DNA of 64,000 nucleotides. Origin: Promicromonospora sukumoe 327MFSha3.1. GTDB taxonomy: Bacteria > Actinomycetota > Actinomycetes > Actinomycetales > Cellulomonadaceae. The translations under genes were made by a program, and so were the position numbers. Positions 30,180 to 61,447 of this stretch are shown in pieces (position 1 is the stretch's first letter; the number at the start of each line of letters is the position of its first letter). The notes under the pieces were generated by a model that did no database searches, was not told the DNA's origin, and worked only from the letters and a program-made list of their open reading frames with translations. The stretch is taken from positions 558,001 through 622,000 of the forward strand of contig NZ_ARQM01000010.1 of the NCBI RefSeq assembly GCF_000385135.1, read 5' to 3'.

Positions 30180-30452
30180 TCACTCCGGGACGATCCGAAC
30201 ATAGCCTCGGACTCCGAGTTCCTTCATCCGAGACTCGATGAACCCGGCAGCCTTCGTGCTGTTCGTCGTCAGCTCGACCACACCGCCACCCTCCATCACC
30301 TCGTTACCGGCCTTCTGCAACCTGAGCAACGTCTCGTCCATCTCGTTGATCGCACGTTCGCGAAGGAACTCTGGGAGCGTGTCTGGAACATAGAAGCTGT
30401 TCGACCGGCCAGCGCCGTCGATGTCAGGGCGCCCGACGTAGCCGAAGGGCAT
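30180..30452 (-). CDS. Small partner gene of the TIR-ATPase
   Basis: A 90-residue protein, MPFGYVGRPDIDGAGRSNSF then EFLRERAINEMDETLLRLQK, with a C-terminal VELTTNSTKAAGFIESRMKE. Family not recognised; mixed helical/beta character. Its ATG lies 29 bp inside the end of the TIR-ATPase gene, and AGGAGAT within that gene gives a proper ribosome site, so the two are translationally coupled. That tight coupling suggests the product works with the TIR-ATPase, for example as a regulator or inhibitor. Confidence 0.65.
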   Translation of the reverse strand: MPFGYVGRPDIDGAGRSNSFYVPDTLPEFLRERAINEMDETLLRLQKAGNEVMEGGGVVELTTNSTKAAGFIESRMKELGVRGYVRIVPE

Positions 30453-31977
30453 TCGGGGAGATCTCCTGCGCCGCGGCGAGCTTCTCCAGCACGAAATCCG
30501 CGACCTTCTCCATCGGCTGGTCCTGCAGGCTGAGGAAGCCGAAGGTCGCGGGCAGTCCGACGATGGGTGGCCGATTCCCGACGAGGAGGGGCAGCAGATA
30601 TTCCTCGGTACGCTTGCTCGCCGCGTTCCGTCCGACCTCGTACTCAAACGTCGTCCAGTCGCGCTCGGGGTAGTCGTCGGAGAGGCAGATGATCATGAAC
30701 TGTGCCTGCTCCCCGTAGATGCGGGCGAGCCCGCGGCGCAGGTCCTTCCCCCAGAGTTCCGCCTGCTGGTTGTAGTCGTAGAAGACCTTGATGTGCCGTT
30801 CCTCGAGCACCTCGACGAACTTGTCGACGACCGGCCGGTCGTTCCCCGCGAACGACACCGCCACGTCGTACTCGTACTTGCGTCGACGGGGGACCACCCC
30901 GGAGCTGACCCGGGTGAGGTCGAGGTGGTCGAGGTAGAAGCGGAACGTCGGGTCGTCGATCCGCAGGGTCCGGTGCTCGTAGGTCAAGGTCTCGTCCAGG
31001 CCGCTCTCCTCGATCAAGGTCGGGAGGATGTCGACAGCGCGGTTGAACGCGCTCCTGACCCGGCCTCTGTCGGCCGGGTCGGCGATTCCGACGACTGCGG
31101 CGTCCAGTTCCTTGTAGGCGGTGCGGAATCCCGGGCTGGCCGCGGCGCGCTGGACGAGCTTGAAGTAGACGTCATGCACAGAACGCCGCCCCTGTGTCAG
31201 GTGGACGAGACTGCGGATGTAGCGACCGTCGAACTGCTTGGCGATCTGGGGGGTAACGACGGCCAGGTCGATGGCGACCTGCCGCGGCTCCGGGACTGTC
31301 CGCATCACGTCGGCCTCGACACAGGCAGCGCGGCAGATCGCCTGGAAGATCGACGGCGACCCCCTGGCGGCCCTGATCGCCGCGCCCCGGCTCGCCTCGT
31401 CGAACCGGATGTTGAGGGCGAGTTCCCCCTGTGTCATGAGGGTGTCCATGAAGGCGTCGCTCTGCGTGCCCAGGTACCAGGTGTCGTTCCGGATCGCGAG
31501 CTCCGGGTCGTGGCCGAGGATGGCGTCGCTCGTCTTGGCGATTCCGATCATGAAGAAGCGGATGCCGCTCTCGTGCCAGAGCTTGAGGCGCGAGGCGAGC
31601 TGGGTGCGCGCCTTGAGCGAGAGGCGGTGGACGTCCTCGATCTTGATCAGGTCGAAGTCCCGCAGCCTCGGCTCAACCGCCTTCACCGTCCGCCCGACGC
31701 CGAGCTCGGCGCCCAGGACGGTGAAGATGCTCTGCGCACTGGTGTGGGCCCGCGCGTTGAAGGAGAGGACGCGGTCGGTGTCGAACCCGGCTGCTGCGAG
31801 CGCTCGCTCGGCGACGGTCGACTTGCCGCTCCCGGACGGTCCGACGAGGGTGACGTGCTTACCCGGCGTCACGAGCGACCCCTTGAGGCGTTGTGCTTCG
31901 GCCGGCGCTACGTAGGTGATGTCCGACGCCTGCGACTCGTTGAAGACCTGGGCGAACTCGTACACGTCCCGCGTCAT
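30424..31977 (-). CDS. AAA-type ATPase with C-terminal TIR domain (putative defence NADase)
   Basis: A 517-residue protein. Residues about 20-200 are a TniB/AAA-like ATPase with Walker A GPSGSGKS (46-53), Walker B IKIEDVH (111-117) and a sensor strand FFMIGIAK (141-148). Residues about 368-480 form a TIR domain: YEYDVAVSFAGNDR, KVFYDYNQQAELWGKDL, FMIICLSDDYPERDWT and FEYEVGR, where Glu445 or Glu447 is the probable catalytic glutamate. Bacterial TIR domains of this type hydrolyse NAD or make signal nucleotides in phage defence. The ATG at 31977 has AGGAG 4-5 nt upstream. Divergent from the HIT-membrane gene. Confidence 0.85.
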   Translation of the reverse strand: MTRDVYEFAQVFNESQASDITYVAPAEAQRLKGSLVTPGKHVTLVGPSGSGKSTVAERALAAAGFDTDRVLSFNARAHTSAQSIFTVLGAELGVGRTVKAVEPRLRDFDLIKIEDVHRLSLKARTQLASRLKLWHESGIRFFMIGIAKTSDAILGHDPELAIRNDTWYLGTQSDAFMDTLMTQGELALNIRFDEASRGAAIRAARGSPSIFQAICRAACVEADVMRTVPEPRQVAIDLAVVTPQIAKQFDGRYIRSLVHLTQGRRSVHDVYFKLVQRAAASPGFRTAYKELDAAVVGIADPADRGRVRSAFNRAVDILPTLIEESGLDETLTYEHRTLRIDDPTFRFYLDHLDLTRVSSGVVPRRRKYEYDVAVSFAGNDRPVVDKFVEVLEERHIKVFYDYNQQAELWGKDLRRGLARIYGEQAQFMIICLSDDYPERDWTTFEYEVGRNAASKRTEEYLLPLLVGNRPPIVGLPATFGFLSLQDQPMEKVADFVLEKLAAAQEISPNALRLRRAP

Positions 31978-32179
31978 CGCACTCCTCTGACCTGGGTGGA
32001 GATGCCTGGTGGCCGCCATCCTCCCCGACCGGCGTCGTCCGGCGCCACCACGCGGTGGCATGTGTTTCGGCACGTGTTTCCGTCACGCGAAGCGTCTGGA
32101 AGGATCGTCGCGAAGGTGACATCCGGGACACGGTCGGCGGTGACGCCCGTGCCCTGCCCCGCGCGGAGAGGTGCCGACC

Positions 32180-35839: not shown

Positions 35840-36316
35840 ATGGGCGTTGCGGAGGCTGTTGCAGTGGGGCGTCGAGGGGCACGAGGCATCGTGATCGACG
35901 ACGAGGGGCGGATGGTCCTGATCAAGCGGACCAAGCCTGGTCAGGATCCGTACTGGACCTCTCCCGGTGGCGGAGTCGAGGAATCCGACCCCTCCGTCGA
36001 GGATGCGTTGCGTCGTGAGCTGGCCGAGGAGCTCGGCGCGACGGCTGACGGCTATCAGCAGGTGTTTCTCGCCTCGGACCCCACTGACGCGGGCGTCGCG
36101 ATTCAGCACTTCTTCGTTGCACGGCTGACGTCGCTGAACCTGACCGAGCGCTACGGGTCGGAGTTCACCAAGCCGGAGCGTGGCGGGTATGACCTGGACT
36201 ACGTGCCCTTGAGCGACGGCTCGCTGGAAGTGATCGACCTCAAGCCCGCGGTGCTCAAAGAGTTCGTGCTCGCGAACCGGGACGCGCTCCTGGCCGAGGC
36301 TGGTTTCGCCGTCTGA
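35840..36316 (+). CDS. Nudix hydrolase
   Basis: A 158-residue Nudix protein. The Nudix box GGGVEESDPSVEDALRRELAEELGA matches GX5EX7REUXEEXGU, so the metal-binding glutamates are intact. It probably hydrolyses a nucleoside diphosphate linked to another group; substrate not predictable. The N-terminal GVAEAVAVGRRGARGIVIDD starts the first strand and GAAAGGGA precedes the ATG. It lies divergent from the broken methyltransferase and converges on the TylF gene that ends the large minus-strand cluster. Confidence 0.92.
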   Translation: MGVAEAVAVGRRGARGIVIDDEGRMVLIKRTKPGQDPYWTSPGGGVEESDPSVEDALRRELAEELGATADGYQQVFLASDPTDAGVAIQHFFVARLTSLNLTERYGSEFTKPERGGYDLDYVPLSDGSLEVIDLKPAVLKEFVLANRDALLAEAGFAV

Positions 36317-36361: not shown

Positions 36362-37129
36362 TCACAGAGGCCGGCCCTCCCACCTCAGGTAGGCAGGTGT
36401 CGCGAACCCGGGAATGGTCCGAAGGGCCGAGACGTCCGTGCCGAGCCAGTCGCGCAGCGCGGACGTCTCGCCCGGCCACTTGGCGTGGGCCAGCTCGTCA
36501 AACGCCAGGATGCTGCCCAGGGTGAGAAAGGGGCGGATCGCGCTGAGTGCTGCCAGGGTCGGCTCGTAGAGGTCCAGGTCGAAGTACGCGAGCGCGATGA
36601 CTGTCTGCGGGTTGTCGGCAAGGTACTGCGGCAGGGTTTCGCGTACGTCACCCTGCACGAGAAGCGTCCGGCGGATGTGTCCCAGGGGTTCGTCGCGTTC
36701 GTGGGCGTCCAGGACGGCGCGGAGGTGGTCCGGGTATTCGCTGCCCAGCTCGAATCGCCCGGGAATGGCGCTGCGCGTGGTGTCGTGGGCACTGACGTCG
36801 GGGAACCCGGTGAAGGTGTCGAAGCCGATGATCCTGCGGTGAGGGTTGTACGGCTCGTGGACGGCGCGCAGCGCGGTGAGGGTGGCGATGCGCCGGCCGC
36901 GGTGGACGCCGAACTCCATGATCACGCCAGGGACGTCCCGAACGATGCGGTACAGAGCATCCATGGCGAGCACATCGGCCAATGGCCGCCGCCGCAGATA
37001 GAGCGCGATGTTGTCGACAAGTTCGTCGGGCGGTATCGGGGTGACCGCGAGGTGCTCGGCAAGGGCTCCGCGGGTCTCGGCCTCACGAGGAGACTCGTGG
37101 GGCAGCAGGGTCTCGTCATGCGTGGACAT
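36362..37129 (-). CDS. TylF/MycF-type O-methyltransferase
   Basis: A 255-residue SAM-dependent methyltransferase of the TylF/MycF (macrocin O-methyltransferase) family, metal-dependent enzymes that usually methylate sugar hydroxyls. Motifs seen are VIMEFGVHRGRRIATLTALR (SAM site), IIGFDTFTGFPD and YFDLDLYEPTLAAL with the metal-binding aspartates. It is the last gene of a long coupled minus-strand operon and overlaps the upstream phosphatase gene by 14 bp. In context it probably methylates the product built by the glycosyltransferase, kinase and dehydrogenase of the same operon. Confidence 0.88.
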   Translation of the reverse strand: MSTHDETLLPHESPREAETRGALAEHLAVTPIPPDELVDNIALYLRRRPLADVLAMDALYRIVRDVPGVIMEFGVHRGRRIATLTALRAVHEPYNPHRRIIGFDTFTGFPDVSAHDTTRSAIPGRFELGSEYPDHLRAVLDAHERDEPLGHIRRTLLVQGDVRETLPQYLADNPQTVIALAYFDLDLYEPTLAALSAIRPFLTLGSILAFDELAHAKWPGETSALRDWLGTDVSALRTIPGFATPAYLRWEGRPL

Positions 37130-37727
37130 AGGGAGTGCCTCTCTTCTCGTGGGTCCATGACTTCGCCGGACGGAGCTCGAAGTGCCGTGCGTGGTCGAAC
37201 ACGGCTACCGGATCGTCGGTGCCGGCGCTGATCGCCGCGACGGCACCGATCAGGAGGCGGTGCGCCACGACGACGACGGGCCGGCCGGCCTCCGCCAGGA
37301 GGTCGGCGGTGGCCATCGCCCGGCGTACGCGACCGTGGAACTCGTCGAGGCTCTCGCCGCCGGGCAGCGCACTCCTTGGGTCTGCGGTTCTCCTGCCCCG
37401 CCACTCGACGTAGACGTCCGGGTACTGCGCCGGTGACCTGCCTAGTACACAGGTTGGTGCGCGCCACTCGTCGAACGTCGAGTCGGCAGGGGACAGCGTT
37501 AGCCCGGTCAGCTCGGAGACGATCCGGGCGGTGCTGCGGGCACGCAGGAGCGTGCTGGAGACGATCACTCCGTCGGCCATCCCGGACTTCCGCAGAGTCT
37601 GGGCTGTGCGTTCCGCCTGTCGTGCTCCGAGGCGTGTGAGCAGGCTTCGCGGACGTGCGTGAGCGTCCGGGCGGTGGAAGCCGTCGGCACAGATTCCGTG
37701 CCGCATCCAGGTGACGGTAGCGCTCAC
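37116..37727 (-). CDS. Histidine phosphatase (phosphoglycerate mutase-like)
   Basis: A 203-residue member of the histidine phosphatase superfamily. The phosphohistidine motif RHG is in TWMRHGICADG near the N-terminus, the acid/base region is FDEWRAP, and the second histidine lies in VVVVAHRLLIGAVAA. The GTG at 37727 overlaps the stop of the upstream SDR gene as GTGA. It probably removes a phosphate from the pathway intermediate of this operon. Substrate unknown. Confidence 0.88.
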   Translation of the reverse strand: MSATVTWMRHGICADGFHRPDAHARPRSLLTRLGARQAERTAQTLRKSGMADGVIVSSTLLRARSTARIVSELTGLTLSPADSTFDEWRAPTCVLGRSPAQYPDVYVEWRGRRTADPRSALPGGESLDEFHGRVRRAMATADLLAEAGRPVVVVAHRLLIGAVAAISAGTDDPVAVFDHARHFELRPAKSWTHEKRGTPYVHA

Positions 37728-38476
37728 GACAGGTGCCACCCGCCGTCGACCGTGAGGCACTGCCCCGTGATGAAGGCAGCGTCCTCGGAGAGCAGGAACG
37801 ACACGGCACCGGCGACGTCGTCTGGCACGCCTCGCCGTCGGATTGCCTGGCGAGCGAGCTGCCGGACGACCATCGCCTCGTGATCGTCGACCACCGCATG
37901 CTCTGCGGGTACCTCGATGGATCCAGCACGGACGCAGTTGACGGTGACGTCGTCCGGTCCGAGCTCGCGGGCCAGCGCTCTGACCAAGCCCTCCAGCCCG
38001 GCCTTCGCCGCGATGTACCCGGCGAGATCGACCCGGCCGAGCTGGCTCAGGACCGATGAGATCGCGACGACTCGTCCACCTTCGTTGGCCCTCAGGGCGG
38101 AAGTGGCCAGGTGCGCGACGGCGGCGTGCGTCGTGAGGTTGACGTCGATCTGTCGGCGGAAGGTGTCGCCGTCGTGCTCAACCCACGGGATGCGGGGATA
38201 GGCGCCGGCATTCGAGACGAGCACGGTGACCCGCTCATGCTGTTCGTCGATGAGACCTTGCAGCCGGTCGATCGTTGCGGTCTCCGTCAGGTCGCCGGTG
38301 ACGGTGCTGACCGCAGCGCCGTTCCTGTCCGCCTCAGCCGTGACGCGGGAGAACTCGGCGTCGTCGCTGAGGTGGGTCAGGATCAGGTCGTAGCGGGGCG
38401 CGAGGCGTGCGGTGATCGCTACGCCGATGCCGCCGCCGGCTCCGGTAATGATCGCGACCGGTCGTGGTGGGTTCAT
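37724..38476 (-). CDS. Short-chain dehydrogenase/reductase
   Basis: A 250-residue classical SDR that oxidises or reduces a carbonyl/hydroxyl with NAD(P). The cofactor loop is TGAGGGIG (about 10-17), followed by VLVSNAGAY, catalytic Ser in ISSVLSQLGR and the YxxxK pair in YIAAKAGLEG. The C-terminus (FITGQCLTVDGGWHLS) is FabG-like. ATG 38476 has AGGAG upstream and overlaps the stop of the upstream kinase-like gene as ATGA, so translation is coupled. In this cluster it may modify a sugar or similar polyol. Confidence 0.9.
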   Translation of the reverse strand: MNPPRPVAIITGAGGGIGVAITARLAPRYDLILTHLSDDAEFSRVTAEADRNGAAVSTVTGDLTETATIDRLQGLIDEQHERVTVLVSNAGAYPRIPWVEHDGDTFRRQIDVNLTTHAAVAHLATSALRANEGGRVVAISSVLSQLGRVDLAGYIAAKAGLEGLVRALARELGPDDVTVNCVRAGSIEVPAEHAVVDDHEAMVVRQLARQAIRRRGVPDDVAGAVSFLLSEDAAFITGQCLTVDGGWHLS

Positions 38477-39609
38477 CGGGGCGCTCCTGTCGATGTGGTG
38501 GCGAAGCACGGGAACGGGACGGTCGGGCTGACGTCGTCATCGGCGAGCTGTGCGAGAAGGGCGAGCGACAGCGCGACATCGGGGCCGTCGAGGCGCGTGA
38601 TGTCGTAGACACCCAGGACGCGTGCGATGAGATACGGGCGTAACCAGGCCCAGAGGTCCCGGACACCGAGCGCCTCCGCGACCGGTCGCACGACCTCGGT
38701 GAGATAGCGGCCGACCACGTGGGTGCGGACAGCCCCAGGGTCGAAGGCGTAGGTGATTGCCAGGCCGGTGTCCGACTGCTCGGTGTAGATCCGCGGACGG
38801 TGAAACACGGAGCTGTGCAGGGCCTCGGGGTGATCGTCGAAGGCATCGCGGTTGTACCGCGGGGTGAGCCATGCCCCGTGGAGCACCTGGTACATCAGGA
38901 AGCAGGCGAACTCGCCGGCGACGGCGTTCAGGCCACCGGTGTCGTAGTCGAACCACACCGGACCCGAGCGGGGTGACCAGCCGATGTTGAAGTCGGTCGG
39001 GTCGCCCTGCGAGATCGCTGCCCAGACACGCCGGTCGGCGGCGAAGTCGGCGCGGAGGCGTTCGACGATCGAAGGCAAGTCCACCATGTGGGGGCGACCG
39101 TTCACTTCCATGCGAAGGCCAGCGGGCACGACCTCGCCCGAACGCAGCGGCCAGGGCGGGCACCTGCCGTAGTACTGATCGACTCGTCCGCTCGTGCGCA
39201 GGCGGTCTCCGTAGAGCTTTCCGACGACGCGGCGGGCGGGGATGTGCCTGGCTGTGCTCAGAAGGGTGTCTCGGTAGTAGGTCAAGATGTCGTCCAGGAA
39301 CATGTCGAGCCGCGCGCGGTCGTTCGTGGTCTCGGCGCGTGAGATCTCGTCGACCAGCAGACTGCCGCCCTCGTCTCGGTGGAGCGACCGATCGAACACG
39401 TGGACCGCCCAGGGGCCCGCGGATCCGGCCCACCGAAGCGCGGGGATCGGGTAGTAGGCCTCGATCGCGGCGTGCCCGGTCAGCTCTTGGCGTGCTTCGG
39501 CACGGTTGGGGTTGGCCTTGACGAACAGCGGCCATCCGGCGACGTCGAGGTGCCAGGTGTGGTTGCGGGTGTAGCGGCGGTGGTTGGAGATCCGGGGCAT
39601 GAGGGTCAC
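38473..39609 (-). CDS. Aminoglycoside phosphotransferase-fold kinase-like protein
   Basis: A 378-residue protein with an APH/choline-kinase-like C-lobe: SQGDPTDFNIGW resembles the catalytic HGDxxxxN loop (with Gln in place of His) and VWFDYDTGG the metal-binding D(Y/F)D motif. The N-terminal part (HLDVAGWPLFVKANPNRAEA) contains a VK pair typical of the ATP-binding lysine. The replaced histidine is also seen in some active family members. Probably phosphorylates a small molecule of the pathway. The GTG start overlaps the glycosyltransferase stop (GTGA) and the stop overlaps the SDR start. Confidence 0.75.
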   Translation of the reverse strand: MTLMPRISNHRRYTRNHTWHLDVAGWPLFVKANPNRAEARQELTGHAAIEAYYPIPALRWAGSAGPWAVHVFDRSLHRDEGGSLLVDEISRAETTNDRARLDMFLDDILTYYRDTLLSTARHIPARRVVGKLYGDRLRTSGRVDQYYGRCPPWPLRSGEVVPAGLRMEVNGRPHMVDLPSIVERLRADFAADRRVWAAISQGDPTDFNIGWSPRSGPVWFDYDTGGLNAVAGEFACFLMYQVLHGAWLTPRYNRDAFDDHPEALHSSVFHRPRIYTEQSDTGLAITYAFDPGAVRTHVVGRYLTEVVRPVAEALGVRDLWAWLRPYLIARVLGVYDITRLDGPDVALSLALLAQLADDDVSPTVPFPCFATTSTGAPR

Positions 39610-40682
39610 CTCCCGGCCAGCTTCTGCAGCGCGAAACGCGCGACTGTCGCCGGTGGTACCTGGCGCAGGTCCGAGGCATTGCCCCAGACCGTGTCGTCGA
39701 GCTGGTCACGGACGGGGCACCGGTCGGCTTGGGCGAGCATCTGGGAGAACGGCGTGGCCACGCCGTGATGGTTGCTCCGGCCGGTCGTCCACTTCGTGTG
39801 GGGGTGACGCCCGTACAGGCCGATGACCTGCGGGGACGTACCGTCTGCGCGTTCGGTGAGGGCCGCGAGGTGCGTCAGGCCGGTGTCGTTGCCGATGACC
39901 AGCCCTGCCGTGGCGAACACGTCGAGACAGTCGGCGGCATCGAGGCCGGCGACCAGCTCGAGGCCAGTCGGTGCACGAGTCGATGAGGCGTCATTGCCGG
40001 TGAGGAGGGTGAACCGCCACGGGCCGGGACGCGCGTCGGCGAGGTACTGGGCGACCTCCTCGAACCCGTCCGGTCCAAAGTCCTTGCGATCGGGCATGCT
40101 CGTTGCCGCAACGAAGACGACGTGCCAGGGATCAAGCGCGCCGGTGCCGGTGAACGTGGGCAGTGGCGCGGACGCGCGAGGCAGCTCACGGCCAAGGCAC
40201 TGCTCGACCTCCAGGTAGTAGCGCATCGGCAGGGCAGCGTGGACCTCGAGGAGATCGTCGTCCCGCCGGTCGAGCCACGTAGGCGGTCGTTCCGGGACTG
40301 CGTTGAACGTGTACTGTCCGGGGCCTTCAGCGCTCACGATGCTCGCACCGAGGTCCCGGACGGTGCGCAGTGGCAGGTGGCACCGGGCGAAGAGCTCCGG
40401 CCGCGGGCCGCGATAGGTCGGGCTGCCGGCGGGGAACGCGTCCATGAACGCGGTGACGGCACCCAGGGCGAGCAGCACGTCTCCGAGCCCACCGGCACCG
40501 AGATCGACGCTCCATCCCGGCGTCGCTGCCCGGACCCTGGTGGGGAGAGTTGTGTGGCGGCCGCGCCGGTAGGGCAGAACCCGGCCCAACGGGGCATCCT
40601 CTCGACGAACCACCGTGCGTCCACCGAAGGCCGTGACCGGGGCGAGCGGATGGACGGCGCTCAGATGCGTGTCAGCGTGCAC
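39606..40682 (-). CDS. GT9-like glycosyltransferase
   Basis: A 358-residue protein resembling family 9 (heptosyltransferase-like) glycosyltransferases. The GT-B signature GNDTGLTHLAALTE in the C-terminal domain is the nucleotide-sugar site, preceded by VIGNDTG and followed by VIGLYGRHPHTKW; LGAGGLGDVLLALGAV near residue 65 matches the N-terminal acceptor-side glycine loop. Actinobacteria lack LPS, so the acceptor must differ from the classical family. GTG 40682 has GGGAG 7 nt upstream and lies 22 bp inside the phosphoribosyltransferase gene. Confidence 0.85.
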   Translation of the reverse strand: MHADTHLSAVHPLAPVTAFGGRTVVRREDAPLGRVLPYRRGRHTTLPTRVRAATPGWSVDLGAGGLGDVLLALGAVTAFMDAFPAGSPTYRGPRPELFARCHLPLRTVRDLGASIVSAEGPGQYTFNAVPERPPTWLDRRDDDLLEVHAALPMRYYLEVEQCLGRELPRASAPLPTFTGTGALDPWHVVFVAATSMPDRKDFGPDGFEEVAQYLADARPGPWRFTLLTGNDASSTRAPTGLELVAGLDAADCLDVFATAGLVIGNDTGLTHLAALTERADGTSPQVIGLYGRHPHTKWTTGRSNHHGVATPFSQMLAQADRCPVRDQLDDTVWGNASDLRQVPPATVARFALQKLAGR

Positions 40683-41218
40683 AGCGGCACTCCCAGGTCT
40701 TCTATGACGGCTCGTGCATCACCAGACGTGTCCTCGATCAGGCAAGCGATACCGGTCACGTCGGCACCGCGCGCCCGGAGCACAGTGACGAGGTTGGCCA
40801 GGGTGCGCCCGGTGGTGATCTCGTCGTCGACGATCAGGACGCGCTGCCCGCGCAGGTCGCCGTAGGTGTAGACGTCGGTGCGGCGGGCGTGCGGCTCGGA
40901 GAACTGAGCCTTGTGGGGCAGATCGAGGTCGAGCTTCCACGCAAGCCGATAGGGGATACCGCTGGCAAGAGCGACCGCAACGGTCGGGAGGATGCCTCCG
41001 GCGTCCAGGCCGAGCAGAACGTCGGGCGTGACGAACGCGGGGTCGTGCGCCCATCGGTCCCAGAGTGCGTCGCCCGTGGCGATGAGTGATTCGGGGGCGA
41101 CCTGATCCAGGATCCCGTCGAGGTCGTGGACGATACGGACGTCTCGGGCGTGCTCGGGGACTCCGAGCCTGTGTACGCGCTGGGCAGTGAACGAAGCAGC
41201 GGAGCCGGTGACGGTCAT
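40661..41218 (-). CDS. Type I phosphoribosyltransferase
   Basis: A 185-residue PRTase. The PRPP-binding motif VLIVDDEITTGRTL is at 127-140 and is complete. The hood region has LLGLDAGGILPTVAVALASG. It transfers a phosphoribosyl group to or from a base (or cleaves a nucleotide in reverse). Purine/pyrimidine salvage enzymes are the nearest relatives by motif, but the location inside a kinase/glycosyltransferase operon suggests a specialised role. ATGA overlap with the upstream kinase-nucleotidyltransferase gene. Confidence 0.9.
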   Translation of the reverse strand: MTVTGSAASFTAQRVHRLGVPEHARDVRIVHDLDGILDQVAPESLIATGDALWDRWAHDPAFVTPDVLLGLDAGGILPTVAVALASGIPYRLAWKLDLDLPHKAQFSEPHARRTDVYTYGDLRGQRVLIVDDEITTGRTLANLVTVLRARGADVTGIACLIEDTSGDARAVIEDLGVPLCTLTRI

Positions 41219-43086
41219 GGGGCGGTCCTTCCGATCGAGTCGACGTAGTGCAGAAGGTTCTCGGCGGCTAGCACGAGCTGCGCCTGGATGTCCGTGCTGT
41301 TCGGGTCAGCGACTACCTCGTCGAGAGAAGGCGGCAAGCACCGCAGACGGGGGTGGGTGTCGGCGAGGGCTTCGAACACCAGCGGGGGAGTCCGGGCATC
41401 GATTCCGTCTGCACGGAGCAGGATCCGGCCGACGATCACCAGATGTTTGTAGAGGGCGCGGGTGTCGAGGTCGTCGGTGGCTAGCAGGCGGCGTGTGTTC
41501 ATCAGGACGAGGCCGAGCTCGCCCCGGCTAGCTGCGTCGTCTTCTCGATGGGTCGGCAGCGGGATCGCGAAGTCCGGGCGCCGGTGCAGCACACCCACGC
41601 CTGTCCGTGCGCCTCGGAGCGAATGGACGACTCTGGGTGGTACACGGTGCGCCGCTAGATCGGCGACGGTGAAAGCGCTCAGCGCTACCTTGAAGCCGGG
41701 CCTGGTCAGGTCTGCTGTGGCCTGACGAAGCCACTCGGCAGAGAGCTCGTCGCGCACGACGAGCAGGTCGACGTCGCTCCACTCCTCGACCCAGTGCCGG
41801 GTCCCTGTACTGCCGGTCGCCATCACCAGTGCGACGGCGTCGTCGGCGAGCACCTGAGTGGCCTTCCGCAGCCACTCCTCGTCGCTGCGCGGGCGCCACG
41901 AGGGTGGCGTCACACGCGTGGTGTGCATACTGCGGACCATGGATCCGACGGCGAACTTGAGGGTGCTAAGCGGCCCCGAGTTGTCCAGGACGTGGTCGGC
42001 GACCTCGAGGATGCGGCCGGCGCCTCGGCTCAGCTTGATGGCATCCCGTTCCCGAAGCTCGGCCCGGCTCTCTGCGGCGCGATCGGCCCGGGCTTCTGGT
42101 CCAGCATCCACGTAGACGACCTGGCAGCGCGATCCCCACGTCTTGCGGAGGCTGGCGGTCTGCTCGAAGCGGTGGGCGCTCTCCAGGCTGATGCTCCTCG
42201 CCCTGGTCGCGGAGGCGAAACGCAGGATCTCCTCGGTCAGGCGTCCGGCCTGTTCTGCCTCGGACCAGGCGTATGGGTCGTCCTGCCCGACGCGGAGCGC
42301 GGCGACCTCAAGCAGGTAGCCAATCTTGAGCCGGGCCACGCCATGCTCGTCGCGCAGCAGCTCGCCGACCGTGCTCTTGCCGGACTCCGACATACCGCCC
42401 AACACCCAGACGCGGTCCAGCTGTGGGTCGGGCAGCGAATCGACCGCTACTCCGATGTCGGCGATCCGGGCACGGATGGCCCGCTGAACGTCGAGGATCG
42501 GAGCGTCACGCTGATCTATCACCATGTCGTAGGCCCCCCGCTCGACCTGGATCGCGAGCACCTGGGCGAGTGCTTCCTGATAGGCCCGGTATCGGTCGCC
42601 GACGCTTTGTACCTCGCGCTGGAGCGACATGGTCGCCTCCTGTGCTGGGTCGCTGTGGCGCCGCAACAGCAGGTGCACTTCGTGCCGGTGCGCGGGCTGG
42701 GGCAGGTCGCGCGTGATGCGGGTGACCTCGTCGAGTGCGTCATGAGGAGCCAGCCCGTCCTTGACCGCAGAGGTCGCTGCGCACGCCGCAAGGATCATCG
42801 GGAGGCCGCGGTCCTCCAGGGCCAGCGGGCCGCTTGCCTCACGGCGCGCGACGTGGCTGGTGAACATCAAGGCGGTGTGCTCGGAAGTGCTCGAGTCCTG
42901 GAACCACCACTGGGCGAAGCCGTCACCCGCGAGGTCGGCCCAACGGCGGTGCCACTTGTCGGCCGAACCGACGTGATGTGCCCCGTCGATCGCTCGCGCG
43001 AGCCAGGAGAGCTGTGCGGTCTTGCCGACGTTGTCGACTCCGTTGAGGGAAAGGCTCAGTGGGTGAGCCACGGCCGCCGCGCTCAT
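41215..43086 (-). CDS. Three-domain fusion: kinase - kinase - nucleotidyltransferase
   Basis: A 623-residue protein with three catalytic modules. Residues 1-205 resemble a thymidylate-kinase-like P-loop enzyme (Walker A GVDNVGKT at 16-23, LEDRGLPM near 90, DRYRAYQEAL near 164-173). Residues about 223-385 form a second P-loop kinase (GGMSESGKST at 230-239, LKIGYLLEV, later VVYVDAGPEARADR). Residues about 405-520 form a minimal nucleotidyltransferase: GST 425-427 and SDVDLLV 437-443 give the GS-x-DxD active site. I know no described enzyme with this order. It is coupled on both sides by ATGA overlaps and probably acts on a nucleoside or sugar phosphate. Confidence 0.8.
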   Translation of the reverse strand: MSAAAVAHPLSLSLNGVDNVGKTAQLSWLARAIDGAHHVGSADKWHRRWADLAGDGFAQWWFQDSSTSEHTALMFTSHVARREASGPLALEDRGLPMILAACAATSAVKDGLAPHDALDEVTRITRDLPQPAHRHEVHLLLRRHSDPAQEATMSLQREVQSVGDRYRAYQEALAQVLAIQVERGAYDMVIDQRDAPILDVQRAIRARIADIGVAVDSLPDPQLDRVWVLGGMSESGKSTVGELLRDEHGVARLKIGYLLEVAALRVGQDDPYAWSEAEQAGRLTEEILRFASATRARSISLESAHRFEQTASLRKTWGSRCQVVYVDAGPEARADRAAESRAELRERDAIKLSRGAGRILEVADHVLDNSGPLSTLKFAVGSMVRSMHTTRVTPPSWRPRSDEEWLRKATQVLADDAVALVMATGSTGTRHWVEEWSDVDLLVVRDELSAEWLRQATADLTRPGFKVALSAFTVADLAAHRVPPRVVHSLRGARTGVGVLHRRPDFAIPLPTHREDDAASRGELGLVLMNTRRLLATDDLDTRALYKHLVIVGRILLRADGIDARTPPLVFEALADTHPRLRCLPPSLDEVVADPNSTDIQAQLVLAAENLLHYVDSIGRTAP

Positions 43087-43616
43087 GATGCCGCCTGGTA
43101 CTGCTTGAGGTGGCGCCAGGCGGGAACCCGACGAGCTCCACCAGTCACATCCCGAACCAGGTCGTCGTAGGCCGCGGCGAGCTCACGCAACTGGTGCAGT
43201 GCCTGGCGGGCACGATCCTTCGCGCCGGCATCGATCAGCTTGTTCGCGCGCACCCAGGCGATCGCCAGCCGGTCGATCACCGACCCGACCGTCTCGGTGT
43301 GCAGCGGGGCGTCGTCGGGTGCCGTGGAGCAGGAGGCGACGTAATCATCGATCTGCTCGACGACGGTGACCCGGGCGGTGTTCAGCGAGTCGATCGTGCG
43401 CTTGGAAGCGGCGACCGTCGCATCCGCGGCCGTCGTGTCCCGGCTGATGGTCTCGGCGTCCCACTGGCGCTGGTGCTGGCTCGCCAGGTGCCCGGCCAGA
43501 CGTAGCAGGCCGTCGCTCTGCTCGTTCTCGCTGCGGAATGCCTCGATGATCGTGGCGGATCGGTGCAGGACGACGAGGTCCCGTTCGATCTTCTCTGACG
43601 TGGTTGCGCTGTCCAT
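43083..43616 (-). CDS. DUF4254 family protein
   Basis: A 177-residue helical protein with the DUF4254 hallmarks: LVVLHRSATIIEAFRSENE, LAGHLASQHQRQWDAE and VAASKRTIDSLNTARVTVVEQID. Family members commonly neighbour glycosyltransferases; their function is unknown. ATG 43616 has AGAGAGG upstream. It is the first gene after a hairpin and starts the coupled string that runs to TylF, so its 208-bp upstream gap may hold the promoter of the main operon. Confidence 0.82.
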   Translation of the reverse strand: MDSATTSEKIERDLVVLHRSATIIEAFRSENEQSDGLLRLAGHLASQHQRQWDAETISRDTTAADATVAASKRTIDSLNTARVTVVEQIDDYVASCSTAPDDAPLHTETVGSVIDRLAIAWVRANKLIDAGAKDRARQALHQLRELAAAYDDLVRDVTGGARRVPAWRHLKQYQAAS

Positions 43617-43778
43617 CCGGATCGGCCTCTCTCCAGTGGTTGCTTCCGCCCAGACATCCGGGCCGCCGACCTTGCGTCGCCGTGACCACCAGCGTCGTCT
43701 TAGCGGCGCGGACGAAAAACGATCGGCCGGTGCATCGCCGCCGAACGGCCGTCGAACACGTCGAACCTGCAGCACGAC

Positions 43779-43811
43779 GAAGCCCGCCCTCCGATCGGGA
43801 GGACGGGCTTC
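43779..43811. terminator. Hairpin between ARMT1 and DUF4254 genes
   Basis: GAAGCCCGCCCTCC (43779-43792) pairs with GGGAGGACGGGCTTC (43797-43811) with one bulge. It lies 14 bp after the stop of the ARMT1-like gene on the minus strand and before DUF4254, so it may end or attenuate the upstream two-gene transcript. Confidence 0.7.
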
Positions 43812-43824
43812 GGGGGCGGTGAGT

Positions 43825-45012
43825 TCAGGGCCGGACGTGGATGACTGCGTGCGTGCCGTCCGTACGCCATCCGGACGCGGTGGCTTCCAGGTGCGCCAGG
43901 CGGTCCACGTCCACGCCGACGGCGACGTCGGACTTGAGGGTCCGTAGCGCGACCAGCGGCGCGGGGAAATAGGACGTGAGGCTCTCGAACGAGCTTGTGG
44001 GTGCCCAGTGGGCGTCGCCGACGAGGCGGCGATAGTTGAGGTCGCCCTTGATGATCACGACGGTTGCCTCGGCCAGCTCGGTGGTCAGGTCGGCTGGCAG
44101 CCCGTGGAAGCCCAGAGGGCTGCACCAGAACGCATGGGTGTGTACCTGAAGCCGTCCGTCACTGATTGCGGCACGGAGCCGATCGGCGATACTGGCGGCG
44201 GCTCCGGCCGCAGCCTCCAGACGTCGGAGTACCTGGAGCAGGTCGGCGGTCGTGGCGTCGGAGACATAGTAGGGATGCGGCTTCAGGTGCAACGTCACCG
44301 TTGCAGCGCGCCCGGTCGCGAGGAGCCGGTCGATCAGGACGAGGTCGGCGGTAAGCTCCCGGCCCGCGTTGTCTGCGACGAGGTGCACCTGGTTCGGTGC
44401 CCCTGCATCCAGGAGGCGCCACAGCACTGCCGAGTCGTCGGCGACGAGGTCGTCGACTTGTTCCTTGTTCTGGGCCGACGGATCGGACATCCGGAACCCG
44501 AGGTCCGCCCGGTTTCCCCACAGCGAAGCGATCAGCGCCGTGGCGAGGCCAACCTGGTCGGGTGCTGTGACAAGACGGTCGAGGTCTGCCAGGTCGCGGG
44601 CCAGGTCCGGAGTGTCGAGCTCCGCGTTCTTCTGCGGGGCGAACGGGTCGATCCCCGCCCAGGGGCCCGAACCAAAATAGGCGGTGGCCTCCAGCAGTAG
44701 GCGGTAGAAGTAGGACTCGGCCCACAGGAACGGAACATCGAGCCAGGAACGATCCAGATACGGGGCGGCCCATTCCTGCCACACCGCGTGGTCGTGGGCG
44801 TCGGCCGGGAGCGGCGGAATGGCGCCGGCGATGGTCACCAGCAACTGGTCGAGCGACGTCTGGATGTCAGGTGGGTAGGGCACGAGCCGGCGGACTGTCG
44901 CGATCAGGTCGGGGTGCCTCTGGGTCAGCACGCCCCAGGGAAAAGAGCCAGGCACGTTCGACAAGATGGCTTCCGCGGCTGAGGGATGGTCCTGGTCGTC
45001 GTCGATGGTCAC
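43825..45012 (-). CDS. ARMT1-like (DUF89) metal-dependent phosphatase
   Basis: A 395-residue protein of the DUF89/ARMT1 family, metal-dependent phosphatases that act on phosphometabolites such as sugar phosphates. Diagnostic segments are LWGNRADLGFRMSDPSA, HLVADNAGRELTADLVLIDR with the metal-binding Asp-Asn, and IIKGDLNYRRLVGDAHW with the phosphate-site lysine. The GTG start overlaps the stop of the NB-ARC protein as GTGA. Its presence supports a sugar- or nucleotide-phosphate pathway in this cluster. Confidence 0.87.
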   Translation of the reverse strand: MTIDDDQDHPSAAEAILSNVPGSFPWGVLTQRHPDLIATVRRLVPYPPDIQTSLDQLLVTIAGAIPPLPADAHDHAVWQEWAAPYLDRSWLDVPFLWAESYFYRLLLEATAYFGSGPWAGIDPFAPQKNAELDTPDLARDLADLDRLVTAPDQVGLATALIASLWGNRADLGFRMSDPSAQNKEQVDDLVADDSAVLWRLLDAGAPNQVHLVADNAGRELTADLVLIDRLLATGRAATVTLHLKPHPYYVSDATTADLLQVLRRLEAAAGAAASIADRLRAAISDGRLQVHTHAFWCSPLGFHGLPADLTTELAEATVVIIKGDLNYRRLVGDAHWAPTSSFESLTSYFPAPLVALRTLKSDVAVGVDVDRLAHLEATASGWRTDGTHAVIHVRP

Positions 45013-48000
45013 TCCCTGATTCCTCGCTCATCCTCACGCAATGTCAACAGAGTGGTCCCGCCGGCGCTGCCGACGACAACGCTCGCGGTGCGGGGATCGA
45101 ATGCGGCACACTGGCCGCTGGCGTCCACGCGCACCTGCACCGCACTCCGCCCTGGCAGAGTGCCGGCGTCATCAAGCGCCCAGCGCCGGACCGTCCCGTC
45201 GGCCGCGGTCGACGCGAGCCACGAACCGTCCTCGGAGAAGCCGAGCATCAGGACCCGGCCTCGATGCCCTCGCAGTACGGCCTCGGCAACGGGCACGCCC
45301 ATCCGATGAACGTGGATGTCACCGTTGCCCGCGCCGACGGCCAGCCGCGCCCCCGAAGGATCGAACGTGACCGTCCGCGCCCAACCTGGCACCGGAAGGT
45401 CACCACGTTCCTCCCCTGTGCTGAGCGTCCAGGTGCGGACCACGCCATCACCGCCCGCCGCAGCAACCAGGTCCGCCTTGGCGGACACGGCGAGCGAGCG
45501 GACGCGCCCTGCCTTGGCATCCTGATCCCAGCGCAGCTTCCCGTCCGGCAACGACCAGACGCGCACATGCCCGTTCGTGTCGCTGGCAGCCATGAGCGAG
45601 CCGTCCTCGGTGATGGCAACCGCCCAGGTAAGAACCACGTCGTCGTTCAGTTCAAGGATCTGCTCCCCGGCATTCCAGACACGCAAGTGCCCATCACCAC
45701 AGGCCGCCGCGAGGTAGGGGCCGGCCGCGGCCAGTGCCCAGACCCGACCATGACCCGCCGCAAGACGCGACGTCTCCTGCCCGGTCGCGGCGTCGAGCAA
45801 GCGCACGGTGCCGTCAGCGCGACCAAGAGCCACCGAGCCGTCCCCTCCGGTGAAGGCGGCCGACCACACGGTGTTACGTCCCTCAGCGAGGGTCTCCAGG
45901 ACGGACCCGTCCTCGGGTCGCCAGATGCGGAGTCCGCCGTCCTCGCAGCCGGCCACGATCCCGTGTCGCGTCGACGCGATAGTCCTGACCCAGTTGACCC
46001 CGGCCGGCATCCGCGCCCGCAGCCGCGCGTCACCGTGGACGGTGACAGCGGCATCCTCACCGGCAGTCACGACGTGACCGTCCCAGATTGTGAGGGCACG
46101 CAGGCGCTCGCCGTCGGCGTCCAGGACTTCCGCTGGATCAAGTTGCCTGCTGCTGACGTCCCAGGTGCGGGCGGTGCCGTCGGCGGACGCCGAGACGAGC
46201 ACCGGTTGCCCCGGAAGGAATGTCACCGACCTGACCCAGCTGCGGTGCAGAGCCTTCTCGGCGAGCAGCTCGCCATCGCGTAGGTCGAAGAGGCGGACGT
46301 ACTCGTCCTCGCCGCTGGCGGCCACGAGCGTGTCGTCGTCGGAGACGGACAGCGACCAGATGCCTGTGCCGCGCGTCATCGTCTGTCGAGCGAGAACCAG
46401 GGCGGCCAGGTCCCAGACCCGCACCAGCCCGTCTTCGGCGCCGGACACGAGCTCGCCGCCGCGACGGAGGAACGCCAGCGTGCGGATCCGCTTGTCGTGA
46501 CCCGGCAGGATTCCGATCTGTGTCCCGTCAGCCGTCGACCACAGACGGATGGCGTTGTCCTCGCCGGCCGAGGCGATCACGCTGCCATCGGGCGAGATCG
46601 CGACGGCGTGCACCCATCCGGTGTGGCCCCGCAGCGACCGGATCAGGGTTCGTGCGGCTAGGTCCCACAACCTCACGGTGCCGTCCTCGCCGCCGGAGAC
46701 GAGCAGGTTCTCGCGAGCAGCGACGGACACGACCGTACCCACATGACCGGGGAGGTCCGGGTCCTCGACGCCGGCTGCCCACGGAAGTGAGGTGCCGGCG
46801 GAATGGGTGATCCCGAGGAGGGTCTGGTCCGCTTCCTCTCCCACCCGGGACAGGGCTACGAGAAGCGTGCTGGCCATGTCCTGCTCGGTCTGCTGGCCAT
46901 GCAGGAGGTAGCCCTGCGACGTGAGGAACTGAGCCCTCTTCAACGCCTCGACGACAGGTTCGCCGGCGTTGTCGTGACCGGCGGCCAACGCGAGGTCACG
47001 GTCGGCGCGCAAGGCGTGCGCTCCACTGACGGTCGCCTTGGCGATCACATACCGCGGATCGCTGAGCAGATGGGCCAGCGCCTCATGGTCTCTGGACTCG
47101 TAGAGATGGAATGCCAGGTTCGCCCACTCGTAGACCCGAGCGCGGGGCATCTCCAACCAGCCGGACGGCGGCCTGGCCGCCTCTAGGAACGACCTGTGCA
47201 GCCCCGGCAGCGACTGAGCGACCAGGCTGAGCAGATACGCGCGGAAGACGTCGTGCAGGACGACGACGTCCTGATCGGCCCGGTAGGCGCTGAGCAGCGA
47301 CCGGTCGGCGAGGACCTTGCAGAACTGCCGGACCGCGACGGGCGACCACCCGTACGAGTGGCCCCACCATCGGGTCAGGGCCTCCAACGGGATTGGTGTC
47401 GCCGGCGGGAAGACAGCCAGCGAGACATACCGCTCGCTCAGGTCGCTTCCTCCCGGGATGCGCACGTTCTCGTCGAGAGCGCGGAGTGTCGCGGAGATGA
47501 CCTGGCTGATGGCTACCTTGCGCTGGTCGGTGTCCCAGATGTCGAAGGCCTGCGGGCCATGCGTTCGGAGCGCGTCTCGTGCCACGTCGACTGCGTGCTC
47601 AGGATGCGCACCGGCAACGACATCGCTGCTCACGCTCGCACCGACCAGGTTGGCCAGCAGCGGCCAGCCGCCGCAGAGGTCCGCCAGCGGCAGGAGCGAG
47701 GAAGTGGAAGCTGCCGGGATGGTGCGCTGCAGGAGCTCGGCGACCTGGTCCGCGCGCATCGGGCCCAACCGCGTCACTCGAGCGGTGCTCGGTGCGACCC
47801 GGACGTTCCGGGTCGTGACCAGCCGGACGCAGTTCGGCGCTCCCATCAGGAACGGTGCCAGGTCTGCCCCGGACCAGACGTTGTCCACGACCAGAAGCAG
47901 CCGGCGCTCACCGATGACCCTCGCCAGGTGGAACCCTGCCTGTTCCGGATCGGAGAGCTCAGGCCGGGTGCCGTCGAGGTGGAAACACAGGTCGGAGATC

Positions 48001-48521
48001 AGGTGAGTGATCCGCCCAGGCGTGCAGTTCTCGCCTGTCTCGACCCAGAGAATCTCCGGGAAGGCATCGCGAACGGACGGCGCATGACCTGCCTGCGTCG
48101 CAAGGGTCGTCTTGCCGAACCCGCCAGGTCCGGCCACGCAGATGGTCTGCGCGCCTGGAGCCTCCGCCGCCTCACCGATCATGGCGACGAGCGTCTGGAG
48201 TACATCAGGGCGGGCGATCAAGGCCGGCTCCAGATCCGGAACGATGGCGAACCCGCTCGTGGTGGGGGAGAGGACGGCGATCGGTACCCCAAGCGATTCC
48301 CAGAACCGCTCCTGCACACCTGCTTCTGCGCGCCCGTAGGCGGTGTCGAGGATGGCTTGAGACTCCGGGCCTGGTGCGCGGGCTCCATCATCGGCTTCCC
48401 ACTTGGACACGGCCCGGTCGCTGACACCTAGATGCTGCGCGAACGTACGCACGCTCAACCGCAACGCGTGGCGTAGCGCTCGAGACTCGCGCCCGGTCCA
48501 GCGCTGGATCGTTCTCGACAT
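45009..48521 (-). CDS. XRE - NB-ARC (STAND) - WD40 protein
   Basis: A 1170-residue protein. Residues about 10-65 are an XRE-type helix-turn-helix (SVRTFAQHLGVSDRAVSKWE). Residues about 100-400 are an NB-ARC ATPase with Walker A GPGGFGKTT (131-139), Walker B LLLVVDNVW (208-216) and the RLVTTRN sensor. A winged-helix/TPR-like link follows. From about residue 595 come 14 WD40-type repeats (for example GEDGTVRLWD, AEDGLVRVWD, AADGTVRRWA), enough for two seven-bladed propellers. Such STAND proteins sense a ligand through the repeats; here the DNA-binding head suggests a transcription switch for the cluster. ATG 48521 follows GGGGAG. Confidence 0.9.
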   Translation of the reverse strand: MSRTIQRWTGRESRALRHALRLSVRTFAQHLGVSDRAVSKWEADDGARAPGPESQAILDTAYGRAEAGVQERFWESLGVPIAVLSPTTSGFAIVPDLEPALIARPDVLQTLVAMIGEAAEAPGAQTICVAGPGGFGKTTLATQAGHAPSVRDAFPEILWVETGENCTPGRITHLISDLCFHLDGTRPELSDPEQAGFHLARVIGERRLLLVVDNVWSGADLAPFLMGAPNCVRLVTTRNVRVAPSTARVTRLGPMRADQVAELLQRTIPAASTSSLLPLADLCGGWPLLANLVGASVSSDVVAGAHPEHAVDVARDALRTHGPQAFDIWDTDQRKVAISQVISATLRALDENVRIPGGSDLSERYVSLAVFPPATPIPLEALTRWWGHSYGWSPVAVRQFCKVLADRSLLSAYRADQDVVVLHDVFRAYLLSLVAQSLPGLHRSFLEAARPPSGWLEMPRARVYEWANLAFHLYESRDHEALAHLLSDPRYVIAKATVSGAHALRADRDLALAAGHDNAGEPVVEALKRAQFLTSQGYLLHGQQTEQDMASTLLVALSRVGEEADQTLLGITHSAGTSLPWAAGVEDPDLPGHVGTVVSVAARENLLVSGGEDGTVRLWDLAARTLIRSLRGHTGWVHAVAISPDGSVIASAGEDNAIRLWSTADGTQIGILPGHDKRIRTLAFLRRGGELVSGAEDGLVRVWDLAALVLARQTMTRGTGIWSLSVSDDDTLVAASGEDEYVRLFDLRDGELLAEKALHRSWVRSVTFLPGQPVLVSASADGTARTWDVSSRQLDPAEVLDADGERLRALTIWDGHVVTAGEDAAVTVHGDARLRARMPAGVNWVRTIASTRHGIVAGCEDGGLRIWRPEDGSVLETLAEGRNTVWSAAFTGGDGSVALGRADGTVRLLDAATGQETSRLAAGHGRVWALAAAGPYLAAACGDGHLRVWNAGEQILELNDDVVLTWAVAITEDGSLMAASDTNGHVRVWSLPDGKLRWDQDAKAGRVRSLAVSAKADLVAAAGGDGVVRTWTLSTGEERGDLPVPGWARTVTFDPSGARLAVGAGNGDIHVHRMGVPVAEAVLRGHRGRVLMLGFSEDGSWLASTAADGTVRRWALDDAGTLPGRSAVQVRVDASGQCAAFDPRTASVVVGSAGGTTLLTLREDERGIRE

Positions 48522-49448
48522 GGGCTCCCCCTGCGACGCGCGGGCGAACCCCACTGCGTTCTCCGTAGAACGGGTCGTGCGTAGTCATCATGCGGCATCC
48601 GAACTTCTCATGCTGTGGGTCAACGCGACCGCCGGATGAACGACGGCGTTCCTATCCTCGCTGGACACATCGGGCGAACGGAACCACCTGGTGTCGAACG
48701 AATGCTGAACTGGACCCGAGAGGTGCACAGTCTCTTGACGAGCCTGTTTGAGGGGGTGGGGGAGCTCTCGTTGATCATGAGCTCGAGGCGTTCGTGAGTG
48801 CGCCTGCTCCGAAACCGGGTGCCCTGTGGGGCCGAGGCTGGTTGCTTCCGCCCTGGCCCTCGTGCAGGCAGAGGGTGTCACTGAGTACATGCATGGCCAT
48901 GCTCCCTCCGTGCGAACTTGGGCCGGCACCGTGGCCTCGATTGCCAACACTCGACGTTCGAACGGGGGCATGCGCCACAGTTTTGTGTCACCTCAGGGGG
49001 GTGGTGACACAAAACTGTGGCACTCCTCGACATTGACTTTCCGCAGGTTGGGCGGATGTGTGTTTGTGCAGAAATTCTTGGAGATGCAGAGTGCTCGATG
49101 GCCCCGACCTCATGGTTCTTGCCTGCTGGGAGAACCTCGGCCAGCATCCGTGCCCAGGCCAAGAGTGATCAGCTCTACACCTTCCGCGTGCTGGCCCGGC
49201 AACCGCGCTCCGCGCGCACGGTGCCTCGGGAGGAAGACCGGCCCGTCGCAACAGGCGACGGGAAGAGCGACAGGAGAGAATCCCGAGCGTTGACGAGCAC
49301 CTCGCAAGCCCTCTTTCCGCGGGCGGTGGCGCCGAGGCACCAGGACCACTACTACGCGGCGATGCTGCATCTCGAAGCCCGGCGTCGTGGCGGCGGCAGC
49401 CTGAATCCGGAGGAGTCTGCGCGGCTCAAGCGTTTGCTGGACAAAACG
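48522..49448. other. 927-bp gap with hairpins and a doubtful small frame
   Basis: No convincing gene on either strand. It contains the upstream region of the NB-ARC gene, a 19-bp hairpin (48974-49021), a smaller hairpin CCCGTCGC-AACAG-GCGACGGG (49242-49262), and a doubtful plus-strand frame from TTG 49290 (HYYAAMLHLEARRRGGGSLN, then PEESARLKRLLDKTSRR). That frame looks protein-like for about 50 residues and then runs antisense through vsr, so it may be a broken gene end. Confidence 0.5.
48974..49021. repeat. 19-bp perfect inverted repeat, 10-nt loop
   Basis: Arms 48974-48992 (GCCACAGTTTTGTGTCACC) and 49003-49021 are perfect reverse complements. It lies inside a gap with no gene ending close to it on either side, so its role as a terminator is less obvious than for the other hairpins here; it may mark the end of a lost gene or element. 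Confidence 0.75.
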
Positions 49449-57735: not shown

Positions 57736-58410
57736 TCGACTCCTGTCACGGTCACGGCGCGCTGAAGATCCAGCCGCGTCGTACATCAGTCCGAACTTGC
57801 CCTACGGAGTAGGTAAGCAGCTTCACGCTCGGGACACAACTTCCGACACCCCGCCCCTGCTCAAGCTCACCCCGGATTCGCTAGGCGCCGGTACAGCTGC
57901 TCCGGCCCCTTTCTGGTGCCAGCCTACGTGCCGCGAGGCCCCGAGCCCCGCTCAACACAGCCACTATGACCACTCAGAGCCTTATTCAGCGGCTCGGGAG
58001 TGGCCATGAGTGTGTGGCGTGCTGACCTGCGTCGTTGCTTGCCAGGATCAAGATCGGGCAGGTAGAGCAACGGCCCTTGGGTCCGGTTGGGACTGCCGCA
58101 GGGATGGTTGACACGTCTCCTTTGATGGGAGGGGCAGGGGCTGGTCAGCGTAGACGGTCTCGAGCCCGATCGGTGTCATCCTGCCCAGGCGATGTCGGCG
58201 CCGTTGGCGGTGGTAGGTCCGATCGATCCAGGTCACGATCGGCCAAACGGAGTTGCTCGCGGGCGGCCCAGGGGCGGCGAGTGAGGAGGGTCTCCTGTAG
58301 CGGCAAATAGGGTGATTTGATCGGGTATCACACCTAAGGTGGAGACGTACCCCGGCGAGGTTGCCTACGATCGGGTCCGCAAACTTCGATCTCGTGAGGG
58401 AGTGCCAGTC
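57736..58410. other. 675-bp divergent region with decayed element
   Basis: This gap separates the divergent methyltransferase operon and the GmrSD-like gene. Besides both promoters it holds a hairpin, CCACTCAGAGCC / GGCTCGGGAGTGG around TTATTCAGC (57970-58003), and a transposase remnant (58055-58300). The first 200 bp are less GC-rich than the flanks. Confidence 0.6.
58055..58300 (-). pseudogene. IS3-type transposase (OrfB) C-terminal remnant
   Basis: On the minus strand, one frame gives ETLLTRRPWAAREQLRLA and, after a one-base shift near 58240, the neighbouring frame gives IVTWIDRTYHRQRRRHRLGR followed by MTPIGLETVY. This is the C-terminal integrase-core end of IS3-family transposases (conserved W-x-x-x-x-YN-x-x-R-x-x-x-x-LG-x-x-SP pattern). 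No other part of the element or terminal repeats were found, so it is a frameshifted fragment. Confidence 0.7.
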
Positions 58411-61368: not shown

Positions 61369-61447
61369 CGGAAGACATGCCTGCCGGACACGATGCCGAG
61401 CCGACCGTGGAGCCGGTAATCCCGTGCCAGCCCCCACCCCACCGACC

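Follow-up and report, generated by a model that had tools for sequence, protein, structure and literature searches.

The window analysed here, a 64,000-nucleotide stretch of the genome of the actinobacterium Promicromonospora sukumoe 327MFSha3.1, carries on its minus strand ten open frames (36362-48554) which overlap by 4 to 37 bp with the exception of a single gap, as an earlier note made from the sequence alone had claimed. The conserved unit within this run is formed by eight coupled minus-strand genes, from the DUF4254 gene to the TylF gene (43616..36362), together with a NUDIX hydrolase gene on the opposite strand (Table 1). The borders drawn by the note hold for the DUF4254-TylF part, but the NUDIX gene had been overlooked and the ARMT1-like gene had been included, which the comparisons below do not support. 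The likely start of the DUF4254 gene is the ATG at 43616, which has a purine-rich stretch ahead of it, the GTG at 43775 being less likely; this leaves a gap of 208 nt behind ARMT1, whose stop is at 43825.

Table 1. Genes and features of the cluster and its flank in the window
Feature	Position	Strand	Evidence and remarks
DUF4254 protein	43083..43616	-	PF14063 5.8e-26; first gene of the operon; start ATG
Three-domain fusion: thymidylate-kinase/AAA_28-like P-loop kinase, AdkA-like P-loop kinase, Pol-beta-type nucleotidyltransferase	41215..43086	-	Family profile matches
Type I phosphoribosyltransferase (PRTase)	40661..41218	-	PF00156 2.3e-11; intact phosphoribosyl pyrophosphate (PRPP) loop VDDEITTG
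GT9 heptosyltransferase-type glycosyltransferase	39606..40682	-	PF01075 2.5e-10
APH/MTR-kinase-fold small-molecule kinase	38473..39609	-	Fold; no Pfam family
Short-chain dehydrogenase/reductase (SDR)	37724..38509	-	PF13561 8.1e-47; ATG at 38476 may be the start
Histidine phosphatase	37116..37760	-	PF00300 1.9e-19
TylF-type O-methyltransferase	36362..37129	-	PF05711 1.3e-07; only in a subset of loci
NUDIX hydrolase	35840..36316	+	PF00293 2.5e-15; convergent with TylF and the operon
Hairpin, terminator-like	43766..43826	-	15-bp stem; 3' of ARMT1, between ARMT1 and the operon
ARMT1-like (DUF89) protein	43825..45012	-	PF01937 2.2e-59; neighbour, probably not a member
XRE/NB-ARC/WD40 STAND protein	45009..48554	-	PF00931, PF00400; possible regulator through its helix-turn-helix (HTH)

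Most of the family names given by the note, namely TylF, His_Phos_1, SDR, GT9, PRTase, DUF4254, ARMT1 and NB-ARC/WD40, are supported by Pfam matches over the cut-off. The APH-like protein falls in no Pfam family, though it adopts the APH/MTR kinase fold and belongs with these kinases, in which the catalytic aspartate sits in a [HQ]GDxxxxN loop; the Q, G, D, P, T and N of its QGDPTDxN loop are nearly invariant. The label of kinase and nucleotidyltransferase (NTase) is carried by the family of the fusion protein rather than by the window copy, whose matches to AAA_18 and NTP_transf_2 lie below the cut-off: at E<=0.1, NTP_transf_2 is matched by 30 of 35 members, AAA_18 by 21, AAA_28 by 17 and Thymidylate_kin by 4. 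Against PDB profiles the fusion matches AdkA-like proteins (1.7e-6) and CdnD (2.8e-4). The DUF4254 protein scores 91.5 bits on PF14063, against a cut-off of 27, and 22 columns of its alignment (24 sequences) are invariant. The PRPP loop of the PRTase is invariant or almost so across 24 sequences, and the protein matches APRT/OPRT-type models and structures as well as, barely over the cut-off, PRTase_2 (30.2 versus 28.8 bits). Members of GT9 are marked by the motifs LGD and DTGLxH; both are present in the window protein, which scores over the cut-off on its Pfam model, and LGD and NDTGLTHLA are invariant in 24 sequences, with a further match to heptosyltransferase 1 at 0.003. All ten NCBIfam matches of the histidine phosphatase fall below their cut-offs, and the REXXEE motif of the NUDIX protein is invariant in 34 sequences.

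The conserved set and its modular build

A contig profile search with an alignment of the kinase and NTase parts (five sequences) recovered 118 relatives, the best 80 of which were kept and represent 79 distinct loci, by label 78 actinobacterial and one from a Bacillota metagenome-assembled genome (MAG). Gene presence was scored across these loci by tblastn with the window proteins. The kinase-NTase part is found in 79/79 by construction, because the loci were selected on it; the thymidylate-kinase-like part (TMPK) is likewise present in 79/79, NUDIX in 78, the APH-like kinase in 77 and SDR in 74. DUF4254, PRTase and GT9 each occur in 52 loci, which are the same 52, and all three are missing from the other 27. 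This all-or-none pattern points to a core with an add-on module, and accordingly to 52 long and 27 short loci. The histidine phosphatase (HisPhos) is present in 48 of the 79 loci, TylF in 8 and ARMT1 in 2; four long loci are without HisPhos, three of which (L035, L054, L067) stop at a contig end and one (L041) does not.

Gene order is comparably conserved. The arrangement NUDIX-TMPK-DUF4254-kinase/NTase-PRT-GT9-APH-SDR-HisPhos is seen in 31/79 loci, and two further loci have this same arrangement plus ARMT1 on the opposite strand. The short arrangement TMPK-kinase/NTase-APH-SDR-NUDIX accounts for 22 loci, while 15 share the order of the window with NUDIX on the opposite strand (8 of these with TylF), and the remaining nine are incomplete or variant. 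The same order thus recurs in dozens of genomes from several families, which is beyond chance, and the co-occurrence and synteny that the note had proposed to look for in other actinobacterial genomes are both observed. In three loci (L015, L016, L017) a single open frame encodes both DUF4254 and kinase-NTase, with TMPK standing separately, unlike the window, where it is TMPK that is fused and DUF4254 that is free. On the kinase-NTase tree the distribution of long and short forms amounts to one change; the dividing branch has a support of 85/28 and long branches meet there, so that a single origin of the division is not firmly shown. The window, which itself sits on a long branch, is grouped with six Pseudonocardiaceae entries and one MAG (99/87), the best identity being 58%.

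The phyletic pattern is patchy. The fusion is absent from all 12 congeners (one of these genomes being 83% complete), and a survey of 394 genomes of the class, in which three candidates per genome were scored, found it in nine at E<=1e-3, the window's own included. The long set is present in the window's genome, G055, G257 and G371 and the short set in G395, while G093, G313 and G403 have weak partial matches with stops. An apparent remnant of the cluster is seen in G168 (L018:9324-9775), where the end of DUF4254 and the first part of TMPK are 61-65% identical to the window and a NUDIX match (44%) is also found. A fragment of the fusion lies on linear Streptomyces plasmids of ~1.2 Mb (L020, L021, near 14863-15438), and one Kitasatospora phosalacinea strain has two copies of the short cluster (L086, L098).

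Lineage-specific tailoring genes adjoin the set, namely TylF and, in four loci (L017, L048, L074, L081), a TauD-type dioxygenase, which at L017:7535-8395 stands immediately ahead of NUDIX; one member of this protein cluster was confirmed by Pfam. Long loci of Streptomyces (L038:6405-8152, L040:5442-6392) have a divergent trio of XRE, isochorismatase-family and FAD/NAD oxidoreductase genes, whose protein clusters span 26-27 loci, and in Micromonospora loci (L031:4995-8804) upstream frames judged by eye are permease-like, amidase-like, GPP34-like and acetyltransferase-like.

The DUF4254 family is found in nine of the 394 class genomes, the four with the long set among them. In G339 and G378, which belong to one genus, a GT9 gene lies ~0.2-1.2 kb from DUF4254 on the same strand; these GT9s are recognised by Pfam and not by similarity to the window GT9, and tblastn with the cluster proteins recovers only DUF4254 in the two 19-kb stretches. 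Three genomes of another genus have 6, 7 and 6 DUF4254 matches (L106-L124); in L127 (10 kb), from this multi-copy genus, the GT9 query of the cluster gave no match and no GT9 was seen by eye, no Pfam search having been made. One DUF4254 gene of L127 adjoins a GalT-like frame, as judged by eye. A flavobacterial DUF4254 family is linked, according to PMC9425974, to the ADP-heptose:lipopolysaccharide heptosyltransferase RfaF, so that G339, G378 and, by that paper, the flavobacteria resemble the window in having a GT9 gene close to DUF4254. As the two are neighbours in three settings, DUF4254 is probably a partner of GT9, with the multi-copy genus standing against this or leaving it untested.

Neighbouring genes and the hotspot

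The hairpin that the note had placed in the gap is well supported (-35.2 kcal/mol, z -4.74, with 0/200 shuffles as stable); it lies at 43766..43826 and is absent from the output of a terminator scan that requires a T-rich tail, and its role as a terminator is therefore putative. The ARMT1-like gene upstream of it is a clear member of the ARMT1/DUF89 phosphatases but is not co-inherited with the set: in both loci that have it nearby it is on the other strand, and in the congener G011 it occurs without any other window gene in the 16-kb stretch examined. It is hence probably outside the conserved set.

The note had taken the STAND gene to be the likely sensor of the cluster, which is possible. 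Its first 78 residues place it in an HTH subfamily with members in 37 of 296 class genomes (E<=1e-3), as a single copy in 30 of the 37, in a survey that scored at most 19 candidates per genome out of those seen at first look. The sole copy of G055, a member of another family, lies inside that genome's own cluster, whereas G257 and G371 have the long set and no copy, and in the window the hairpin intervenes. Among 30 HTH loci of ~3.2 kb each, counting that of the window, cluster genes occur only in that of G055, and the link is suggestive only. More generally, XRE genes lie within 3 kb of 51/79 loci (36/52 long, 15/27 short), at a density of 0.117 per kb near versus 0.018 far, an enrichment that is biased because the XRE model had been built on six genes taken from the window and these very loci. 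The PADLOC candidate model HEAT-ARM_XIII matches the WD40 part of the STAND protein (3.4e-33), which we read as repeat similarity.

The cluster lies in a hotspot bounded by the HIT gene (32171) and a gene at 60247-61437, which comprises 27 kb in the window and is seen in three of the 12 congeners (G006 about 15, G007 69 and G010 65 kb). An MZA-like defence block adjoins the cluster; G006 has this block at 94.7% identity with the cluster absent, which argues that the latter is separate cargo. A GmrSD-type restriction protein that has the N as well as the C domain is encoded at 58339-60114, and a protein with TIR and AAA domains (30424-32073) adjoins HIT at the border.

Predicted product and alternative readings

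The conserved set and order, the modular build, the catalytic motifs, the APH fold, the DUF4254-GT9 neighbourhood, the patchy distribution and the lineage-specific tailoring genes lead us to favour, tentatively, a horizontally moving operon for the biosynthesis of a glycosylated, phosphorylated nucleoside-like small molecule. The enzyme logic of the earlier note, which pointed to a pathway on a phosphorylated sugar, nucleoside or nucleotide, is plausible. In such a pathway the PRTase would join a base-like acceptor to PRPP and the histidine phosphatase would strip the 5'-phosphate, much as CobC removes that of alpha-ribazole phosphate. GT9, aided by DUF4254, would attach a sugar taken from a nucleotide-sugar donor and the SDR would alter a hydroxyl. 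Phosphorylation of the product would fall to the APH-fold kinase together with both P-loop kinases, and the Pol-beta NTase would attach a nucleotidyl group. NUDIX may cleave a diphosphate intermediate or surplus product, and in some lineages TylF would O-methylate the product. In loci of the short form, the fusion, APH, SDR and NUDIX would complete a simpler acceptor. Several points weigh against this proposal. The NTase and kinases could equally act on a sugar phosphate; the SDR family is promiscuous, so that the orthology of the SDRs in short loci, mostly at 40-44% identity, is unsure; and the 14 protein clusters that span at least 20 loci (six judged from sequences, the rest by position) showed neither a base-forming enzyme nor an exporter, which would be unusual for an exported antibiotic.

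Decoration of a glycan is a possible but doubtful alternative, in which an unusual nucleotide sugar, the work of the kinases and NTase, would be passed by GT9/DUF4254 to a lipid or glycan of the cell surface, with the PRTase supplying phosphoribose. Known members of GT9 and TylF act on sugars, and the proximity of DUF4254 to GT9 in G339 and G378 and its link to RfaF would fit; yet the 27 short loci keep the kinases and NTase with no GT9 found, none of the ten reported genes falls, by Pfam, in a membrane, lipid-carrier or polymerase family, and a soluble type I PRTase is not known as a usual glycan enzyme. An intracellular nucleotide signal or cofactor, made by the fusion and its partners, removed by NUDIX and read by adjacent XRE regulators, appears unlikely. 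The near-universal NUDIX, the crowding of XRE genes close to the loci and the lack of a common exporter among the protein clusters viewed speak for it, while 28/79 loci have no XRE within 3 kb, the enrichment carries the seeding bias noted above, and the tailoring genes differ by lineage as in secondary metabolism. It is similarly improbable that the core four proteins produce a new actinobacterial nucleotide class, a signal or cofactor, with a dedicated kinase-kinase-NTase synthase, its own NUDIX and XRE readers, to which the PRTase/GT9/DUF4254/phosphatase module would have been joined later to give a glycosylated form.

An anti-phage role, for which the variable hotspot with its MZA-like, GmrSD and TIR-AAA neighbours, the patchy distribution and the HEAT-ARM_XIII match could be cited, is very improbable: of the four members of the set run through PADLOC, the fusion, DUF4254 and the APH-like protein are without a match, as is the neighbouring ARMT1, and the PRTase has a weak one (ShosT, 5.3e-4), GT9, SDR, phosphatase, TylF and NUDIX lying outside that scan; no effector domain was seen; and a congener carries the MZA-like block alone of the two. 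Least probable of all is a drug-detoxifying set, since although folds of the APH and ANT kind occur in resistance enzymes (the ANT match being weak, E 0.021), detoxification does not account for a fixed gene order that takes in PRTase, GT9, SDR, phosphatase and DUF4254.

Relation to known systems

The nucleoside-like product proposed above invites comparison with the purine N-nucleoside antibiotic clusters of the pentostatin and angustmycin types, which, according to PMC12648386, share with the window a PRTase-type step and an SDR or phosphatase. By the same paper the pentostatin type uses the HisG-like PenA, in contrast to the APRT/OPRT-like type I PRTase of the window, and the kinase-kinase-NTase fusion, GT9, DUF4254 and NUDIX set the window apart; the words kinase, nudix and glycosyltransferase were not found in its main text. 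Membership in the pentostatin type was rejected, as HisG is not among the PRTase matches shown, which are instead to PF00156 and APRT/OPRT-type models. Anantharaman and colleagues reportedly described in 2012 a Ter-dependent biosynthetic module with a predicted nucleoside-like metabolite. Loci of that module carry TerD/TerC-type and ATP-grasp genes; no TerD or ATP-grasp Pfam match (E 0.01) was found in the ten reported genes, nor any TerD/TerC-type or ATP-grasp match in the NUDIX gene and nine neighbours, and this candidate was also set aside. What is shared with it, going by the summary in PMC8115787, is a PRTase (that of the window also matching PRTase_2) and a predicted nucleoside-like product. 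CBASS, which pairs a CD-NTase with an effector, was rejected too: the NTase is CdnD-like, but the fusion has no PADLOC match and the set no effector domain by Pfam.

Literature searches on the gene combinations yielded no paper describing the set and no named pathway and, with its recurrence across genomes, agree with the note's claim of an undescribed unit. It is a real and conserved enzyme unit, and apparently one without a known description. The operon is small, sharply defined and widespread, and, having no polyketide, peptide-synthetase or other hallmark enzymes, it may be overlooked by rule-based mining. Its build as a core with an add-on module lets the chemistry be read by comparing short and long strains, and the cluster makes the proposed partnership of DUF4254 with GT9 amenable to testing.
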